Program-made: the position numbers and the translations under genes
The notes under the pieces: generated by a model
Told to the model about the DNA's origin: nothing
What the model saw: only the letters and a program-made list of their open reading frames with translations
Databases searched by the model: none
Part shown: in pieces, positions 1-63,790 of the stretch
How the letters are laid out: the number at the start of each line of letters is the position of its first letter
How positions within the stretch are numbered: the first letter of the stretch is position 1
Assembly (NCBI GenBank): GCA_028714915.1
Contig: JAQTLL010000005.1
Location: 1-64,000 of the forward strand
Source of the DNA: Sulfuricurvum sp.
GTDB taxonomy: Bacteria > Campylobacterota > Campylobacteria > Campylobacterales > Sulfurimonadaceae
Reading direction: 5' to 3'
DNA: 64,000 bases

Positions 1-1076
1 TCCGTGTTGCCGTCAGCTGTCTCACCTAGAGCCGCACGATCCGTACCTACCGTCTCATCCACATTCACCGCCAATGCCGCAGCTTTCGCAACCTCACCAA
101 CTACACTCAAGGTCGGACCGTCATCATTAATCTCTATCACCAAATTTGCCGGTGCCGTACTGTCTCCATCATCATCAGTAACTACCATCGAGAACGGAAT
201 TTCCGGATACTGATCGGCTGCACCCGTATGATTAGGATCCGTGTGCGGTGCATTATCATTTAATGTGTAAGTCCAACTGTACACACCTCCACTTACCGTA
301 ACCACTAAATCACCGTAAGTGCCATGTACAGTGCCACCATTGGTCACGTCTACAGTATTGATTACCACACCGCCTACGGTATTAATGGTATCACCTCCCG
401 TCGTGATGTTGAGTGTACCACCTGTGCTGAGATTACCTCCTAGATTACCCTCTGGGATTAATCCACCTTCATTTACTACTGCGACATTGCCTTCGGCCAA
501 TACCCAATCTGCCGTCGGCGTACTGTCTTGTAGCAAATTCACCGGTGTTTCAGGAACTGTTGCCCCTAATATATTCGGTGCTGTCACACGCAAATCGGTC
601 GTTACATCGGTAACCAGACCGTCACGTGCCGCAAACGTATCGGCCAATCGTGCTGTATCTACCACAATATCACCCGCTGCTGTCTCATCTCCGGCTGTTG
701 TTTTATCTCCGGCTTCCGTCCCATCAGAGGGCTGCTGGTGTGTTACACCTTGTGCTTCGGTTCCTGCTGCTGCCATCGCCAGTGCATCTTTGACCGAATT
801 GACATACACCACCGCATCATGATGACTGAAGATACCATTTAACAACGAACTGTCAAACTGCAACGCTCCATTAGCTGAGAGAACCACATCACCGGCTCCC
901 TCGAGCAATACATCAATTACGATATTGGCACTTGCCCCGTTATTCGCGGCCCCATACACATGATCACCCTCATTGATTGTCTCACCTACTTTAAGCTGAT
1001 GAATACTCCCCTTACTATCTTTGACATAAAAAGTACCGTTTAAAAACGATTTTACTACTCCGATTGCGCGTGCCAT
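1..1076 (-). CDS. Large retention-module (LapA-like) adhesin, N-terminal part only
   Basis: An open frame runs on the minus strand from the ATG at 1076 through the left edge, so at least 358 residues are present and the C-terminus is missing. Residues 1-45 (start MARAIGVVKSFLNGTFYV) form the beta-rich retention module of LapA-type adhesins, which holds the protein in the TolC pore. Residues 132-135 are TAAG, the LapG-type cleavage tetrapeptide. After a linker comes a bacterial Ig/VCBS-like repeat region rich in Gly, Thr, Asp and Val (for example DDDGDST). The first ~150 residues are clearly paralogous to the complete protein at 1285-3090. A good ribosome binding site (GGAGG, 1083-1087) precedes the ATG. 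It is likely secreted by the type I system at 3770-8794. Total length and C-terminal RTX signal cannot be seen. Confidence 0.88.
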   Translation of the reverse strand, partial: MARAIGVVKSFLNGTFYVKDSKGSIHQLKVGETINEGDHVYGAANNGASANIVIDVLLEGAGDVVLSANGALQFDSSLLNGIFSHHDAVVYVNSVKDALAMAAAGTEAQGVTHQQPSDGTEAGDKTTAGDETAAGDIVVDTARLADTFAARDGLVTDVTTDLRVTAPNILGATVPETPVNLLQDSTPTADWVLAEGNVAVVNEGGLIPEGNLGGNLSTGGTLNITTGGDTINTVGGVVINTVDVTNGGTVHGTYGDLVVTVSGGVYSWTYTLNDNAPHTDPNHTGAADQYPEIPFSMVVTDDDGDSTAPANLVIEINDDGPTLSVVGEVAKAAALAVNVDETVGTDRAALGETADGNT

Positions 1077-1107
1077 GTGATGCCTCCATTTTGAAGTTTA
1101 TACGGTC

Positions 1108-1158
1108 ATTGTAACGCAGAAAAAAATATAAATCTATTGTACCAAGGTACTAATTGTG
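1108..1158 (-). promoter_or_regulatory. Promoter and palindromic operator of the large adhesin gene
   Basis: On the minus strand a -10 box TACAAT lies at 1108-1113. Upstream is the perfect palindrome GTACC-AA-GGTAC (1139-1150) inside a longer stretch that recurs almost unchanged upstream of the small paralog (3121-3171). The palindrome sits about 25-35 bp upstream of the -10, a position compatible with an activator site. The LuxR-type regulator at 3179-3769 is the obvious candidate ligand; that link is inference. Confidence 0.6.
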
Positions 1159-1236
1159 TAAAAAAGTTCTCTTTTTTTACTAGATAATAAGAAATAAGAA
1201 AGTTGGTTATCTCGAGGATTTACCGAAGTGCAAGAC

Positions 1237-1263
1237 GAATAGCACGAATAAACTGTGCTATTC
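1237..1263. terminator. Hairpin downstream of the small adhesin gene
   Basis: A perfect 9-bp inverted repeat GAATAGCAC / GTGCTATTC with a 9-nt loop lies just after the stop of the 601-aa adhesin gene. No T-tract follows it on either strand, so it may be a weak or factor-dependent terminator or an mRNA-end stabiliser. The rest of the 1151-1284 gap holds nothing I recognise. Confidence 0.35.
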
Positions 1264-1284
1264 TAAAAGAAAGAGAAAATCGTA

Positions 1285-3090
1285 TCAAATTACAGGAATA
1301 TCTGTCTCCACTCTGACCATTACAGTTGGATCGCCAACACTGGTGTACTCATTAAACATATAAGAAGTCCCGTTGACATCGTATGAGACGGCTGTTCCGG
1401 TTTGACTCCACTCTCCCGAATTGAGGAATCCAACCTGATCGGCACCATCCCCCAAAATATAAATATTACTATTTCCGCTCTCTGTCATATTTACAACATC
1501 GGCAAATGTAATGCTGGTCAGGTCATGGTCTCCGCTGGTTAGATCAATAACCTCAATATTATTGACATTACTGACCAAGGTATGGAAATCAATATTGGAG
1601 TTTCCAATCAGAACCAAGGTATCGGTACCTGTTCCTCCATCGATGGTTATATCATGGCTATCATACACCAACGCATCATTTCCCCCTTCACCATGGAGAG
1701 AATCAGATCCGATCCCGCCGATTAAAATATCATCTCCGCCACCGCCGCTTAGTGAATCATTACCTTCTCTTCCGTCAATCGAGTCATTTCCAGCTGATCC
1801 GACAATGGTATTGTCTCCGTAGACACCGACGTATGCCGTTGCACTGCTGCCATCGGATTCGGTGGAGGTTAATGACGCTATAATACTGCTATCTTGCGGC
1901 AATTCTTTATCCATCGTCAAAGTCCATGAGGTAAAATCGGTATCTGATCCGAACGTCACCACTCCGCTTTGTGGAACGGTCATATCGTCATACACATCAT
2001 GGGTAAGAATGGCCCCGGCTGGAAGCCCAGTAACGATAACATCTCCAAGGACTTCAGTCGAATCGGTCAGAGTGGCATCGATAATATTAAGAGGATATTG
2101 ATAAGAAACCATATCAGCATTAATGCTTTCTACCTTAAATTCACTGTTTATATTCTCTGCATTAACAAAGTTTTGAACCTCAAGTGCATAAAACGGGGTA
2201 TCAATAGAAATAGTTACAGGCTGATTATGAGGATCGGCATCATTGAATAAGCTATCAATATTGATTGTTTCGATAACTTTCCCCTCATGATCTTTTAATA
2301 ATATTTGCCCATCATCTACGTCTGTTTTATAACTTTTCAATCCAATCGTAACCGATGTAGCACTGCCATCAAATTTAATATCACCTGTTGTGCTATTGTG
2401 TGTATGCAAATTATAACCTTTTGCATCTGCATTACTATTTACTGGAGTAACTAATTGCGTTGGTTCACCCAGTGCAACATCTAATGTTGGAGCACTGGCT
2501 TCCACCACCGGAGGAGGTGGTGGCGGAGGTGTTACTAGCGGCTCTGTCACAGCCAACAAAGTTGTTTCCATAGATGAAGCCGTTGTTTCTGCCGCATTTG
2601 GTGTAGTTGTCCGTAAATCAGTCGTTACATCGGTAATTGCACCGTCACGGGCGGCAAACGTATCAGTCATCCGTTCCGTATCCGTGACGGTATTACCCGC
2701 TGCCGTTTCATCTCCGGCTTCGGTCACATCAGCTGCTGCTATTTTCTCTTCTGATGCAGAGTGCATTTGAGCTTCTGCCGCTGCAGAAAGAGCCAAAGCG
2801 TCGCTGAGGGAATTGATATGAATAACCGCATCATGATGGCTGAATATATTTGCGAGTAAAGCGCTCTCAAATTGCAACGCACCGTCTCCTGCAAGGATCA
2901 CATCACCGGCTCCGTCAAGCAATACGTCGATAACAATCTTCGCATCTGCTGTATTACCGTATGCACCATATACATGGTCACCCTCATTGATCGTTTCACC
3001 CGCTTTTAACTGATGGACATTACCTTTTATATCTCTGACGTAAAAAGTACCGTTTTCAAAAGATTTAATGTAACCTATTGCACGAGCCAT
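1285..3090 (-). CDS. Small retention-module RTX adhesin (LapA-like), 601 aa
   Basis: A complete mini version of the adjacent adhesin. Residues 1-45 are the retention module (MARAIGYIKSFENGTFYV). TAAG at 129-132 is the candidate LapG cleavage site. A proline-rich spacer (TPPPPPPPV, about 187-195) follows, then a beta-rich middle. Near 430-475 is a block of Ca2+-binding RTX nonapeptides (GREGNDSLSGGGGDDILIGG). The C-terminus (about 475-601, containing IEVIDLTSGDHDLTSITF and YILGDGAD) is typical of type I secretion targets. The large Ig repeats of true LapA proteins are absent, so this would protrude only a short distance. RBS GGAG at 3097-3100. It is the last gene of the adhesin/T1SS side facing left, with its own promoter at 3121-3126. 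Confidence 0.87.
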   Translation of the reverse strand: MARAIGYIKSFENGTFYVRDIKGNVHQLKAGETINEGDHVYGAYGNTADAKIVIDVLLDGAGDVILAGDGALQFESALLANIFSHHDAVIHINSLSDALALSAAAEAQMHSASEEKIAAADVTEAGDETAAGNTVTDTERMTDTFAARDGAITDVTTDLRTTTPNAAETTASSMETTLLAVTEPLVTPPPPPPPVVEASAPTLDVALGEPTQLVTPVNSNADAKGYNLHTHNSTTGDIKFDGSATSVTIGLKSYKTDVDDGQILLKDHEGKVIETINIDSLFNDADPHNQPVTISIDTPFYALEVQNFVNAENINSEFKVESINADMVSYQYPLNIIDATLTDSTEVLGDVIVTGLPAGAILTHDVYDDMTVPQSGVVTFGSDTDFTSWTLTMDKELPQDSSIIASLTSTESDGSSATAYVGVYGDNTIVGSAGNDSIDGREGNDSLSGGGGDDILIGGIGSDSLHGEGGNDALVYDSHDITIDGGTGTDTLVLIGNSNIDFHTLVSNVNNIEVIDLTSGDHDLTSITFADVVNMTESGNSNIYILGDGADQVGFLNSGEWSQTGTAVSYDVNGTSYMFNEYTSVGDPTVMVRVETDIPVI

Positions 3091-3120
3091 GTGAACTCCT
3101 CTGAGAAATTTTATACTCTC

Positions 3121-3171
3121 ATTCTAACGCAGAAAAAATTCAAAATCTATTGTACCAAGGTACTAATTGTA
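3121..3171 (-). promoter_or_regulatory. Promoter and palindromic operator of the small adhesin gene
   Basis: Near-identical to the block at 1108-1158. There is a minus-strand -10 TAGAAT (plus-strand 3121-3126), the poly-T/CTGCGTTA spacer, and the palindrome GTACC-AA-GGTAC at 3152-3163 followed by TAATTGT. The spacing between palindrome, -10 and ATG is conserved, so the two adhesins are probably co-regulated. The block ends only 8 bp before the stop codon of the LuxR-type gene, so this promoter lies between regulator and adhesin. Confidence 0.6.
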
Positions 3172-3178
3172 TAAAAAA

Positions 3179-5107: not shown

Positions 5108-7284
5108 ATCGAGCCTCCTGAAAGTTTGGCGATCACTTGATCTTTCGGACCATCCAGATAAATTTGTCCTTCATTCATCACAATAATACGATCTACTACA
5201 GAGAGAATAGTATTCTTCTGTGTGATAAAAATAGCGGTTTTGTCTTCTACATACGTTTTCAAATTGCCTATTAAACGATTTTCACTCATTTGATCCATGG
5301 AGGCTGAGGGTTCATCCATAATCACGATCGGCGATTCGAATAGAATCGCCCGAGCGATTCCAATACTCTGTCGCTGACCTCCGGAAAGACCCATTCCTCT
5401 CTCTCCAATAGGCATTTCATACCCTTGAGGATGTTTTCGGATAAATTCATCGGCCCCAGAAATAACAGATGCCCGAATCATCTGTTCATCGCTCACATGA
5501 CTAGAACGGTAAGTAATGTTATCTTTGGCATTGCCTTTAAACAATGAAATATCCTGAGAGACATAGGAGATATTTTTGCGCAGATCCGCCGGATCAATCT
5601 GCTGAATATCGATTCCATCAAGCAAGATCGATCCGCTTTGCGGTTCGTAGAGATGCAACAACAACTTGGCAATCGTACTTTTCCCTGATCCCATTCTCCC
5701 GATGATAGCCACCTTCTCACCGGCTTTGATACTGAAAGAGATATGGTTTAATGCGTTATGATCCGATTCATCGTAGGCAAAACTCACATCTACAAATTCA
5801 ATTTGCCCTTTCAACTGCGGACGAGTAATAAATTTATGACCGTGGGGACGTTCCATAGGCTGCGAAATAATATTATTCAGAACATCGTACGCCGATCTGG
5901 CATCCGAATAGTTAGCGATTAAAGCCGCTGCCTGTCCCATCGGAGCAACAGCACGGGATCCGACGATAACAACGGCAATCAGCCCCCCCATCGTCAATTC
6001 GTGTTCACCGATCAAGTAAACACCGACAATGATCGACAAAATCGTTGTTAATTGCATCATAAAACCGGTCATCGTTGAAATCGATGCAGAAATCATGCGC
6101 GATTTAAGGCTCTTTTGGGCAATCTCACCCGTTGCCTCTTCCCAAGCCCACTGTACCTGTCCCGTCGCACCGAGAGTTTTGAGGGTTTCAATATTTTGCA
6201 GTGCTTCAACCAAAATAGAGTTTTTAGCCGCTGCAGCTTTATGTGTTTCTTCTATACTTTCGCTTAAAGGAGTACGAATGACAAGTGCATAAATCAGGAT
6301 CAATAACATCATCACAATGGGAACCAAAACGATCCATCCACCGATATATCCGATCAGCAACAAAAATAAAATCGCAAACGGAAAATCAACCACTGCCGTC
6401 AAAGTGGCATTCGTCAAAAAAGAGCGGATCGCATCAAAATCCTTAAGATTACTGGCAAAAGAACCTACCGATTTTGGGTGTGCTGCCATTTTTAAATCAA
6501 GTACCCTCTCAAAAATCACCGACGACATGATGATATCGCTTTTTTTACCGGCATTCTCCAGCAAAATCGCCCGCGTGAATTTCAAAAATGTGTCCAGTAA
6601 ATAGACGATCAAGACTCCAACAGCAAAAACCCATAATGTTTCTTTGGCATTATTCGGTATGACACGGTCGTATACGCTCATCGTAAACATAGGACTTGCC
6701 AAAACAAATAAGTTGATCAGTACCGTTGCGTAAATAACGTCACGATAAATGTTAGCTGAAAGCTTGAGTGTATCCCAGAACCAATGCTTACTTTTCACAT
6801 TGAGCGTCAACGTATCATTTTCGTTATAGACAAAGGGTTTTTTGATTAAAAAGGCAAAGCCGGTGTACTCTTCTTCCAATTTTTCAACCGAAACAGTCTC
6901 TTCTACTGCTTCGTCTGCTGGAAGTACCACTTTATACATTTTGCGGTCTTCCGAAATGGAGTCCAAAATGCAGGCATTGGAATTGTTCAATAGCAAGATC
7001 ATCGGCAGCTGTAATGGCGATATATCTGAAAGTTTTCGGCTGACAAGGGTACTTTTTAACCCAGCAATACTAGCAGCTCGGGAAAAAAGGGCTTTAGAGG
7101 ATTTTAAACTGTAAAGATGAGTCCTATCGCTTTTAGGATCAAGCGGTAATCCGGCGATCAACGCTTCAGCGGTATAGGGCTTATGATACAGTTTCGTGAA
7201 CAATACCAGACATTGGAGTAACGGATCGACTCCGAATGCCACCCCTTCCGGGTCAGCAATTTTGGCTTTCATTGTCTCACTCAT
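5104..7284 (-). CDS. Type I secretion ABC permease/ATPase (LapB/HlyB family)
   Basis: 726 aa. Residues about 15-140 form a C39-peptidase-like domain without the Cys-His catalytic motif, as in HlyB and LapB, so it should bind rather than cleave cargo. A six-helix ABC exporter domain spans about 165-445. The nucleotide-binding domain carries Walker A GRMGSGKST (about 530), signature LSGGQRQSIG (about 635) and Walker B IVIMDEPSAS (about 655). It energises export of RTX adhesins across both membranes with the HlyD and TolC proteins encoded on either side. Starts 25 bp after the TolC gene. Confidence 0.94.
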   Translation of the reverse strand: MSETMKAKIADPEGVAFGVDPLLQCLVLFTKLYHKPYTAEALIAGLPLDPKSDRTHLYSLKSSKALFSRAASIAGLKSTLVSRKLSDISPLQLPMILLLNNSNACILDSISEDRKMYKVVLPADEAVEETVSVEKLEEEYTGFAFLIKKPFVYNENDTLTLNVKSKHWFWDTLKLSANIYRDVIYATVLINLFVLASPMFTMSVYDRVIPNNAKETLWVFAVGVLIVYLLDTFLKFTRAILLENAGKKSDIIMSSVIFERVLDLKMAAHPKSVGSFASNLKDFDAIRSFLTNATLTAVVDFPFAILFLLLIGYIGGWIVLVPIVMMLLILIYALVIRTPLSESIEETHKAAAAKNSILVEALQNIETLKTLGATGQVQWAWEEATGEIAQKSLKSRMISASISTMTGFMMQLTTILSIIVGVYLIGEHELTMGGLIAVVIVGSRAVAPMGQAAALIANYSDARSAYDVLNNIISQPMERPHGHKFITRPQLKGQIEFVDVSFAYDESDHNALNHISFSIKAGEKVAIIGRMGSGKSTIAKLLLHLYEPQSGSILLDGIDIQQIDPADLRKNISYVSQDISLFKGNAKDNITYRSSHVSDEQMIRASVISGADEFIRKHPQGYEMPIGERGMGLSGGQRQSIGIARAILFESPIVIMDEPSASMDQMSENRLIGNLKTYVEDKTAIFITQKNTILSVVDRIIVMNEGQIYLDGPKDQVIAKLSGGSI

Positions 7285-33281: not shown

Positions 33282-33555
33282 TTTAGAATTTCATCCCGCC
33301 GCACTCAAAGTGTGGAATGATCTGGGTGCAACCATCAAAGAGCAGTTCAAAAAAAAGCTCAAACAACGGCTTGAAAATCCAAAAGTTCCGAAAGACAAAC
33401 TAAGCGGATTTGAATCAGTCTATAAGATCAAACTCAAAACAGCAGGATACCGACTCGCTTACGAAGTCAAAGACGAAGCCATCGTTATTCTTGTCCTTGC
33501 AATCGGGAAAAGAGAAAATAACAGAGTGTATAATTTATTGCACTCTCGCACGTAA
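33271..33555 (+). CDS. RelE/ParE-superfamily toxin
   Basis: 94 aa. YDLEFHPAALKVWNDLG at the start, then GYRLAYEVKDEAIVILVLAIGKREN near the end are diagnostic of RelE-type ribosome-dependent mRNA interferases. The last 15 codons (KRENNRVYNLLHSRT plus stop) lie inside a 72-bp repeat copied after TA module 2. Confidence 0.9.
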   Translation: MTYDLEFHPAALKVWNDLGATIKEQFKKKLKQRLENPKVPKDKLSGFESVYKIKLKTAGYRLAYEVKDEAIVILVLAIGKRENNRVYNLLHSRT

Positions 33556-33579
33556 TGTATACCCATTTTGGCTATAATC
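33508..33579. repeat. 72-bp direct repeat, left copy
   Basis: Covers the last 15 codons and stop of the RelE-like gene plus 24 bp downstream, ending in TATAATC. 67 of 72 bases match the copy at 34160-34231, 652 bp away. The two copies bracket TA module 2. Confidence 0.9.
33573..33578 (+). promoter_or_regulatory. -10 box for TA module 2
   Basis: TATAAT preceded by CCCATTTTGGC inside the left repeat copy, 56 bp before the antitoxin ATG. The right copy places the identical box in front of pgsA. Confidence 0.5.
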
Positions 33580-34159: not shown

Positions 34160-34231
34160 AAAAGAGAAAATAATAAAGTGTATAATTTATTACACTCTCG
34201 CACATGATGTATACCCATTTTGGCTATAATC
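34160..34231. repeat. 72-bp direct repeat, right copy with relE remnant
   Basis: Encodes KRENNKVYNLLHSRT and a TGA stop (34160-34207), a copy of the RelE C-terminus. Relative to the left copy the five differences are three synonymous codons, one Arg-to-Lys and TAA-to-TGA. An in-frame TAA at 34154 directly precedes it, so only the tail survives. Confidence 0.88.
34225..34230 (+). promoter_or_regulatory. -10 box of pgsA-rseP operon
   Basis: TATAAT in the right repeat copy, 38 bp before the pgsA start; same T-rich context as the copy at 33573. Confidence 0.55.
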
Positions 34232-41560: not shown

Positions 41561-44338
41561 TTATTTCAACTCACCCCAGTGAGTCCCAATATGCATCGAG
41601 GTCTTGAGAGGGACCCGCAGTTCAAGAATATGCTCCATCACATTTACAAAACGGCTCGCGTATTCCTCAGCAATATCCTCATCCACCTCAAAAATCAGTT
41701 CATCGTGAATCTGTAACAGCATTCGAGCACGTAAACCCTCACTTCGAATCATCGTATCGATCTTGTTCATCGAAAGTTTGATGAGATCGCTGGCAGAGCC
41801 TTGGAACACCGTATTGACCAATTCACGCTCGTAGGCGGCTTTGAGCATTGGAGTCGCAGCGGCAAAGTCAAAATATCGTCGGCGATGCAATAATGTCTCG
41901 ACGTATCCTATCTCTTTTGCCTGCTCGACAATACCGCTAAAATACTCTTTAACATTCGAAAAGGTTTCGAAATAGCGCTCAATTATCTCTTTTGCCTCTT
42001 TGGTACTAATCCCCAAGGTATCAGAGAGTTTTTTGCTTCCCATTCCATACAAAAGCCCAAAATTGACCGTTTTGGCAATATGACGTTTTGACGGAGCGTC
42101 CTCTTCTCCGAATAAGGCGATGGCGGTTTGCATATGAATATCATGACCGGCATTAAACGCGGAGACCAAGACACTATCCTCACTGAAATGAGCCAAAAGA
42201 CGCAATTCAATCTGTGAGTAGTCAATTCCGATGAGTTTTTTACCCGCAGGGGCAACAAAGGCTTCACGGATTCTCATCCCCAAAGCTGTTTTAACGGGGA
42301 TATTTTGAAGATTGGGGTTCTTCGAGCTGAGACGTCCCGTTGCTGTCCCTGTTTGGACAAACGACGTATAGATACGTGAATGTTTATCCAAGCGTGCCAA
42401 GACAATCAGCGGTTCGATGTACGTCGAATAAAGCTTATGATATTCACGATATTGCAACAACAAAGGAACAGCAGCATGGGCATCTTTCAATCCTTCAAGC
42501 ACCTGCTCATCCGTACTGTATCCCGTTTTGGTTTTTTTACCGTGAGGAAGCCCCAGTGTTTCAAATAAAATCACCCCCAATTGCTTGGGGGAATTGAGAT
42601 TAAAAACGGTTCCACACATTGCATGAATTTTTTCCGTCAAGGTTGAAAGTTCATTGGAAACTTCGATTTTAAACGTTTCAAGAATCTCAATATCCACAGC
42701 AATCCCCGCTTTTTCCATCCCCAATAACGTCAAAATAAAAGGAAACTCAACGTTCATCGCCTCTTCCAGAGTACGGTTTCCCCCTTTAAGAAGCAATTGT
42801 TCGCGCAACACCTCATAAAGACAATAGGTGATATAGGCATCTTCTCCTGCATATTTGCACGCATCTTCGATGGCAACGGAGGAAAAATTCTCTCCCCGTT
42901 TTACCGTATCTTTAAAATGAATCATCTCATGATTGAGCAATGAAGGACTCAGATTATCCAGTGAAAGGGAACGGTTGGAGTCACTAAGCCATGCCATAAT
43001 AATCGTATCGGCATAGAGGGGAAGTCTCTCAACCCCTAGAAATCGTGTCACGAAATGGAGGTCAAATTTAAGATTATGACCGATAACTTTGCCTTTAAAA
43101 ATTGCTCGTATCGCAACTTTTGCTGATTCTTGGGAAATTTGTTCTCCGACACCCAGATAGTTATGGTTTAGGGGAACGTAATAACCGCTTTTGCCATCCA
43201 TGCTAAAACTAAATCCAACCAATGAATCGACATGAGGATTCAGTCCTGTGGTTTCTGTATCAAATGCTACAATCGTCTCCGAGGAAATGGTAGAGACCAA
43301 AGCCATAAGAGATTCATCGGTGTCAATAAGGATACTGCATCCATCTGACAAAGTACATCTATTCCCGTCATACCCAACGGGCACAAGAACCTCCCCTTCA
43401 GGGTAGACCCGAGGATCCACAACTGGATTCCCGCCTTCGCGGGAATGACGAATAGGCTGTGATTCCTCAAATAATGCTTTTGCTTTTAAAGTCCGTAAAA
43501 CAGCATTCATCTCATAATGAACCAACTCATCATAAATAGGGAAAAACGGATTATCAAAATGCATTGCATAGTCATTAAAATCAAAAGACTCAAAAACATC
43601 ACCACGTAATTTCACCAGCTCACGCGACCGGAAGGCATCATCACGGTAGGTCTCTAACAACCCACGAATGCGGGGAGGATTAACCTCATCAAGCTTTTCA
43701 TACATCGAATCAAGTGTTCCAAATTGACTAAGAAGCTTTTGTGCTGTTACCTTACCAATTCCCTTAACTCCGGGAACATTGTCTGCCGTATCTCCGATAA
43801 GTGCTTGATAATCAATAAACTGTTTGGGATGAACTCCGTATTTTTCATCACAATGACGTTCATTCATCACTTTTTTACTGATTGCATCGACCAAGACCAC
43901 CACATCATCTTCGATCAATTGATACAAGTCTTTATCATGAGAAACTACCCGAACAATATGACCTTGAAGTCGCGCATGGTGTACTACCGAAGCGATCATA
44001 TCATCGGCTTCATACCCGCTCAAAAGAAGGGATTTATATCCCATTTTTTCAATCCAATTGATGGCAACAGGGAGTTGTTGAATCAGCTCTTCAGGAGCTG
44101 GTGAGCGATTGGCTTTATAATTTGGATCAATTTCAGCACGAAAACTAGGTCCCTTGGCATCAAGGGCAAAAATGAGATAATCACTGCTGTGATCTTTGTG
44201 AAGTGAAGCAATAAAATTAATAAAACCGGTCAAAAGACCAGTAGGAAAACCATGCTTATTTCTAAGAGGAGGAAGAGCATAAAACGAGCGGAAAAAAAAA
44301 CCGAACGTATCAATAATGGTAACTGTTTTTTGTCCCAT
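41561..44338 (-). CDS. polA: DNA polymerase I with in-frame REP-derived insert
   Basis: 925 aa. 5'-nuclease domain (1 to about 285; VSHDKDLYQLIEDDV, GIGKVTAQKLL), 3'-5' exonuclease with intact DTE (FDTETTGLNP, about 360) and polymerase domain with motif A DYSQIELRLL (about 704), motif B KTVNFGLLYGMG and motif C QIHDELIFEV (about 872). Residues about 297-326 (containing RHSREGGNPVVDPR) are encoded by a mobile palindromic repeat in the linker between nuclease and exonuclease, so probably tolerated. Roles in Okazaki-fragment and repair synthesis. Confidence 0.96.
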   Translation of the reverse strand: MGQKTVTIIDTFGFFFRSFYALPPLRNKHGFPTGLLTGFINFIASLHKDHSSDYLIFALDAKGPSFRAEIDPNYKANRSPAPEELIQQLPVAINWIEKMGYKSLLLSGYEADDMIASVVHHARLQGHIVRVVSHDKDLYQLIEDDVVVLVDAISKKVMNERHCDEKYGVHPKQFIDYQALIGDTADNVPGVKGIGKVTAQKLLSQFGTLDSMYEKLDEVNPPRIRGLLETYRDDAFRSRELVKLRGDVFESFDFNDYAMHFDNPFFPIYDELVHYEMNAVLRTLKAKALFEESQPIRHSREGGNPVVDPRVYPEGEVLVPVGYDGNRCTLSDGCSILIDTDESLMALVSTISSETIVAFDTETTGLNPHVDSLVGFSFSMDGKSGYYVPLNHNYLGVGEQISQESAKVAIRAIFKGKVIGHNLKFDLHFVTRFLGVERLPLYADTIIMAWLSDSNRSLSLDNLSPSLLNHEMIHFKDTVKRGENFSSVAIEDACKYAGEDAYITYCLYEVLREQLLLKGGNRTLEEAMNVEFPFILTLLGMEKAGIAVDIEILETFKIEVSNELSTLTEKIHAMCGTVFNLNSPKQLGVILFETLGLPHGKKTKTGYSTDEQVLEGLKDAHAAVPLLLQYREYHKLYSTYIEPLIVLARLDKHSRIYTSFVQTGTATGRLSSKNPNLQNIPVKTALGMRIREAFVAPAGKKLIGIDYSQIELRLLAHFSEDSVLVSAFNAGHDIHMQTAIALFGEEDAPSKRHIAKTVNFGLLYGMGSKKLSDTLGISTKEAKEIIERYFETFSNVKEYFSGIVEQAKEIGYVETLLHRRRYFDFAAATPMLKAAYERELVNTVFQGSASDLIKLSMNKIDTMIRSEGLRARMLLQIHDELIFEVDEDIAEEYASRFVNVMEHILELRVPLKTSMHIGTHWGELK
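43365..43450. repeat. REP-like palindromic element inside polA
   Basis: Contains the perfect 8-bp hairpin ATTCCCGC-CTTC-GCGGGAAT (43427-43446) with flanks CTGG/TGACG, the same unit as at 63700-63725. The left half (CCCGTCATACCC ... GGGTAGACCCGAGGATCCAC) looks like a diverged partner unit. Translated on the minus strand it gives the well-known RHSREGGNP peptide of such repeats, in frame with polA. Confidence 0.82.
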
Positions 44339-63665: not shown

Positions 63666-63790
63666 TAGACTTCTTGCATAACTAACTTTTTAAAAAGAGC
63701 TGGATTCCCGCCTTCGCGGGAATGACAGAGTCTCGTCATCCTCGGGCTTGACCCGGGGATCCATCTTTAGAAGGTTATGCAAGAAGTCTA
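63666..63790. mobile_element. 125-bp MITE-like element with 17-bp perfect terminal inverted repeats
   Basis: TAGACTTCTTGCATAAC (63666-63682) and its exact reverse complement (63774-63790) bracket two REP-like hairpins: CTGGATTCCCGCCTTCGCGG... (63700-63725) and CGTCATCCTCGGGCTTGACC... (63734-63763). The outer bases TTTA(A/T) are near-symmetric too. No ORF inside. Its transposase, if any, is elsewhere. It occupies most of the 333-bp gap 63627-63959. Confidence 0.75.

Follow-up and report, generated by a model that had tools for sequence, protein, structure and literature searches.

CGTC REPs were defined by Di Nocera, De Gregorio and Rocco (2013; PMC3733652). In that survey CGTC-1 is equated with RPE-6 of Rickettsia conorii and dRS3 of Neisseria, RPE-4 is equated with CGTC-4, and Sulfurovum sp. 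NBC37-1 is named as a CGTC carrier. Gene-internal REPs, including REPs in DNA polymerase I, were already reported, and flexible linkers were suggested as the reason that such copies are tolerated (PMC3733652). The polA repeat described here is therefore not a first case. It was found in a window covering positions 1-64000 of contig C5. The draft genome to which this contig belongs (hereafter G000) has 21 contigs totalling 2.1 Mb at ~91% completeness, and its named relatives are Sulfuricurvum, Campylobacterota.

A CGTC-tagged REP dimer in polA

All four Pol I domains were recognized by Pfam in the polA open reading frame (Table 1), and the repeat lies in frame between the 5'-nuclease and 3'-5' exonuclease domains. 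The initial annotation had placed a repeat of ~86 bp (43365-43450, residues 297-326) in this linker with the frame unbroken; the ORF list and the Pfam boundaries agree with the place and the frame, while the element as measured is 85 bp long with the limits of Table 1.

On the coding strand the element opens with CGTCATTCCCGCGAAGGCGGGAATCCA and closes with GGGTATGACG, with CGTC tags at both outer ends (43450-43447, minus; 43366-43369, plus) and the CCA tails facing inward. The left unit matches the consensus of the CGTC-1 REPs perfectly, with the tag followed by an 8-bp stem (ATTCCCGC/GCGGGAAT), the loop GAAG and the tail CCA. The right unit matches a resident variant, TCTACCCTAAAGG...GAGGTTCTTGTGCCC...GGGTATGACG, minus about 21 bp; its TCTACCCTAAAGG subtype recurs at resident loci L002 and L006, and its GAGGTTCTTGTGCCC...GGGTATGACG ending at L002, L005 and L083. 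Only 4 bp separate the two tails, against about 10-35 bp in most resident copies. Folded as single-stranded DNA, a stretch of 101 bases scores better than shuffled versions of itself (z -2.7), and its outer ends, CGTCAT and ATGACG, pair with each other. In its orientation and frame the repeat contains no stop codon and is translated as RHSREGGNP...GYDG.

Could the repeat have been joined to polA by an assembly or sequencing error? The genome is an incomplete draft in many contigs, and repeats are where assemblies fail. However, the frame is open over all 85 bp, the mutated and shortened right unit is found nowhere else, and three other genomes carry equivalent inserts, two of them a common insert with independent decay, so that such an artefact is barely credible.

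Table 1. Positions of polA, its domains, the repeat element and related linker loci of G000 (window coordinates unless a contig or locus is named)
Feature	Position	Strand	Basis and remarks
polA, DNA polymerase I with insert	41561..44338	-	ORF list and Pfam; 925 aa
PolA domain 5_3_exonuc_N	residues 6-168		Pfam
PolA domain 5_3_exonuc	residues 169-259		Pfam
PolA domain DNA_pol_A_exo1 (3'-5' exonuclease)	residues 338-515		Pfam
PolA domain DNA_pol_A (polymerase)	residues 552-923		Pfam
Whole repeat element, 85 bp	43366..43450	-	Encodes residues 297-325 (RHSREGGNPVVDPRVYPEGEVLVPVGYDG); sequence, own-genome repeat matches, absence from relatives
Left unit, 27 bp, CGTC-1 type REP	43424..43450	-	CGTCATTCCCGCGAAGGCGGGAATCCA; sequence, copy counts, family definition (PMC3733652)
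Spacer between the two tails, 4 bp	43420..43423	.	Sequence
Right unit, inverted rearranged CGTC unit	43366..43419	+	Comparison with own intergenic copies L002, L006, L083
priA (L244)	G000:C1:197857-199281	minus
Radical-SAM linker repeat	L298, about 1415-1505

The repeat belongs to a family that recurs at about 25-33 places in the 2.1-Mb genome, far from chance: 33 BLAST matches were obtained, and 25 copies of a 29-base pattern at up to 3 mismatches, against none for a reversed-pattern control. Most resident copies lie between genes or at gene ends, and one of the 27 distinct elements is gene-internal. Most are inverted pairs of a CGTC-1 unit and another CGTC unit, the latter having a stem of 9 bp and a loop of 5 bases; in most copies the inverted partner lies within about 50 bp. 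The polA element thus has every CGTC-1 feature that was examined: the unpaired terminal tag CGTC (or TGTC/CCTC in the family); the 8-bp stem with AT first, 4-base loop and CCA tail (CGTC-ATTCCCGC-GAAG-GCGGGAAT-CCA); multiple, dispersed and mostly intergenic copies; frequent inverted dimers; and a lack of association with tyrosine transposases.

The repeat had also been called mobile. Its dispersal in the genome agrees with this, but no linked transposase was found, and no Y1_Tnp (PF01797) was detected in G000 at its estimated completeness. A RAYT-mobilised REPIN (GTAG REP) was rejected on this ground and because the tag is CGTC, not GTAG. RAYT-driven mobility was likewise rejected, since copy number across 25 genomes shows no correlation with Y1_Tnp (rho 0.03). 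We infer mobility from dispersal only. The 2013 survey reached the same conclusion, that CGTC repeats have no link to Y1 transposases (PMC3733652).

Further repeats were observed in the window. A second CGTC-1 REP (63700-63726, minus) is paired with a second CGTC unit (63734-63763, plus), with tags that face each other, unlike those of the polA element. Two divergent copies, 72-89% identical and ~2014 bp apart (573-3178), appear to represent a duplicated gene with its upstream region. A 72-bp direct repeat (33508-33579 and 34160-34231; 93% identical, 652 bp apart) ends in a TATAATC-like sequence.

The polA linker across Sulfuricurvum

The PolA linker was compared in 37 Sulfuricurvum genomes. 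The repeat is absent from 33 of them, and these linkers are of ordinary length except in G055, where the linker is longer and lysine-rich with no clear repeat. REP-derived sequence is present in G000, G015 and the sisters G021 and G047, the last two having one common insert that is eroded in G047. The initial annotation had proposed aligning PolA from relatives, with the same residues in all of them as the outcome that would speak against an insertion; the insert residues are missing from the 33 congeners, and the four carriers fall well short of a feature common to all. Outside the genus, no clearly longer PolA was seen among the matches listed from 249 genomes of the order, although lengths alone cannot exclude inserts.

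Compared with the nearest insert-less relatives (G002, G007 and G012), polA of G000 has gained only 54 bp net from an element of 85 bp, and about 30 bp of the native linker has thus been displaced. The earlier description of the repeat as inserted accordingly holds for its identity, frame and position, but not in the sense of a clean insertion.

The insert in G000 and those of the other carriers seem to have arisen separately. A PolA tree from which the linker was left out, and in which several backbone nodes have weak support (39-56%), places G000 apart from G015 and (G021, G047), requiring two changes by parsimony. The DNA flanking the G000 insert is 76-89% identical to insert-less G002/G007/G012, whereas G015/G021 reach 54-66% just downstream. 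The TCTACCCTAAAGG right subtype occurs in resident copies of G000 and is not among the sampled copies of G015, G003 and G007, and the left unit in G021 is a different REP, CGTCATTCCCGACCTGATCGGGAATC. Taken with the flanking DNA and the subtypes of the repeats, the tree is best explained by two or more independent insertions in polA. A horizontal copy of the G000 insert from the G015 group was rejected, as the flanking DNA disagrees.

The polA of G000 is not of uniform affinity. Over most of the first 1.7 kb it is closest to G002/G007/G012, while the 3' end (codons about 760-925) is nearer the G015 group (82-86%) than G002/G007/G012 (63-78%), a mosaic that suggests recombination within polA. 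This mosaic, and the insert common to G021 and G047 by descent, could be read as signs of an old genus feature that was lost many times, or that spread between species via polA recombination. Such a history is unlikely: the sequence surrounding the G000 insert does not come from the G015 group, G000 and G021 have different repeat subtypes on both the left and the right, and a single gain would require many losses, each restoring a normal linker.

Disorder of the linker, which the initial annotation had proposed to check in a predicted structure, is consistent with an AlphaFold2 model made from the window PolA and 19 relatives (20-sequence alignment). The pLDDT falls below 50 only at residues 287-329, where no secondary structure is predicted, with high confidence on both sides; as few homologs cover the insert, a low pLDDT is expected there anyway and the call is weakened. 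For the linker common to G021 and G047, dN/dS is 0.24; the remainder of polA gives 0.08, and native linkers of other genome pairs range from 0.15 to 0.8. This insert therefore evolves like an ordinary linker. Its dN/dS is below 1 and full neutrality is not established. There is no evidence for a selected function of the insert, which is presumably expressed, may be neutral for activity and could have arrived via a mobilising enzyme in trans.

Unrelated repeats at fixed linkers of PriA and a radical-SAM protein

A census of gene-internal copies was made on fetched stretches of four genomes. Well inside a long open frame lie five of the 124 distinct CGTC-1 elements sampled: in polA of G000 and of G015, in priA of G003 between the 3'-DNA-binding and helicase domains, in an MmeI-like restriction-modification gene of G003, and in a gene for a B12-binding/radical-SAM DUF4080 protein of G015. 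Since open reading frames take up about 95% of the window, copies within genes are strongly depleted. The copy in the MmeI-like protein of G003 (L213, about 5610-5636) is a CGTC REP read as VIPAKAGIQ.

In roughly two-thirds of the genomes (L239-L276), the PriA linker that joins the 3'-DNA-binding domain to the helicase domain contains repeat-derived peptides, all in frame and drawn from at least four unrelated palindromic families: CGTC REPs (RHSREGGNP, VIPAKAGIQ); VRPEPVEG...VRQAHHER; AAGCTCC-type palindromes (G015, with a relative in G006); and LAYANAE...LAC (G000 and G021). Sister species often differ. A comparable site is the linker joining the B12-binding and radical-SAM domains (L297-L326). 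It could be read in 29 genomes, about 17 of which have repeats at one position in it, the others having a short, clean linker; at least three families are represented (CGTC, VRPEPVEG-type and AAGCTCC-type). Many of these PriA and radical-SAM linkers were assigned to families by eye from their peptides. In G000 the priA repeat has 8 copies genome-wide and that of the radical-SAM gene 11, and for each of the three repeat families the sole gene-internal copy found sits in one of the three linkers (polA, priA or radical-SAM). The literature searched held nothing relevant on RHSREGGNP, on VIPAKAGIQ or on palindromes in priA, and the genus-wide recurrence of unrelated repeats at fixed linkers, also not found there, is the new part of this work.

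Within priA of G003 (L196, 1207-1355) the CGTC REP dimer has a different palindrome, of the GTTCCCACTC...GAGTGGGAAC type, nested inside it, with everything in frame.

Why do different repeats return to the same places? A broad insertion filtered by the tolerance of disordered linkers is the probable explanation. For polA, a CGTC-tagged REP dimer would have entered the segment coding for the linker; because the change in length kept the frame and brought no stop codon, the repeat would be translated as an unstructured spacer joining two domains that work independently. The insert would persist because neither the sequence nor the length of this linker is subject to much constraint. Insertion itself would be broad, with only those gene-internal copies surviving that fall in disordered inter-domain linkers, and the return of unrelated repeats to the same linkers would be the result of this survival filter. 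The predicted disorder, the open frame, the absence from relatives, the rapid turnover and a recurrent site in a non-repair protein all fit insertion followed by such a filter.

Provided that tolerant linkers are numerous in a 2-Mb genome, tolerance by itself would seem to predict a weaker recurrence at these three. The linkers of PolA, PriA and the B12/radical-SAM protein could then be true, site-specific hotspots of insertion or recombination, in which a resident palindrome attracts others by nested insertion, template switching or repeat conversion, and unrelated families quickly insert into or replace each other at a fixed site. The nested palindrome in G003 priA would fit this, as would the mixture of families at the single radical-SAM position, the tendency of inserts to replace native linker and not merely add to it, and the distribution of the PriA families, which differ between sister species and whose states require 17 changes on the PolA tree, nearly as many as shuffled labels (mean 19.2). 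However, no target motif or integrase was found, tolerance with many trials could give the same picture, and many of the family assignments behind the pattern were visual, so that hotspots are possible but tentative. If they exist, linker sequence would turn over rapidly within conserved proteins.

Di Nocera et al. (2013; PMC3733652) speculated that proteins of replication and repair are the preferred targets of REPs, whose effects on mutability would be under selection. Both polA and priA carry repeats, and uvrABCD, recBCD, polA and dnaE2 are listed in their survey, but the equally recurrent site in the B12/radical-SAM DUF4080 protein, which has no repair role, and the copy in the MmeI-like restriction-modification protein weaken repair-gene targeting. 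The polA inserts, moreover, lie in a linker predicted to be disordered, are absent from most congeners and are decaying in G047. Targeting of this kind is thus very improbable in Sulfuricurvum, and linker tolerance is favored over it because of the radical-SAM site.

Relation to described palindromic elements

Taken together, Sulfuricurvum offers a clear case of selfish DNA becoming protein in a free-living genus of Campylobacterota, one that includes empty sites, a decaying insert that sister species have in common, and linkers at which such events have recurred. With about 40 species, the genus is a natural panel in which to ask what decides where intragenic REPs are found: target sequence, gene function or survival alone. 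The radical-SAM site speaks against the published proposal of a preference of REPs for repair genes (PMC3733652).

Among the closest described systems are the CGTC-1 REPs (PMC3733652). The polA element has in common with them the CGTC tag, the 8-bp stem starting with AT, the 4-base loop, the CCA tail and the inverted dimers, as well as the want of a dedicated transposase and the occasional in-frame copies inside genes, DNA polymerase I among them. It differs in its Sulfuricurvum host and in its right partner, which is rearranged with extra internal palindromes.

Rickettsia palindromic elements (RPE-1, RPE-4 and RPE-6) are likewise palindromic repeats found in frame in essential-type genes. The likeness to them drawn by the initial annotation is borne out through the stated equivalence of CGTC-1 and RPE-6 (PMC3733652), and the polA element behaves like RPE-6 in being present in frame in a functional-type gene and absent from orthologs. 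However, the RPEs described in a review (PMC10969869) are about 150 bp long, compared with 85 bp in Sulfuricurvum polA, and nearly half of the RPEs of R. conorii lie in open reading frames, compared with about 4% of the sampled CGTC elements in Sulfuricurvum.

The recurrence has a close likeness in the recB REPs of Xanthomonas campestris and X. oryzae, where different repeats occupy about the same position of an orthologous gene (PMC3733652). That case involves one gene in two species, whereas in Sulfuricurvum three genes, some 30 species and at least four repeat families are involved.
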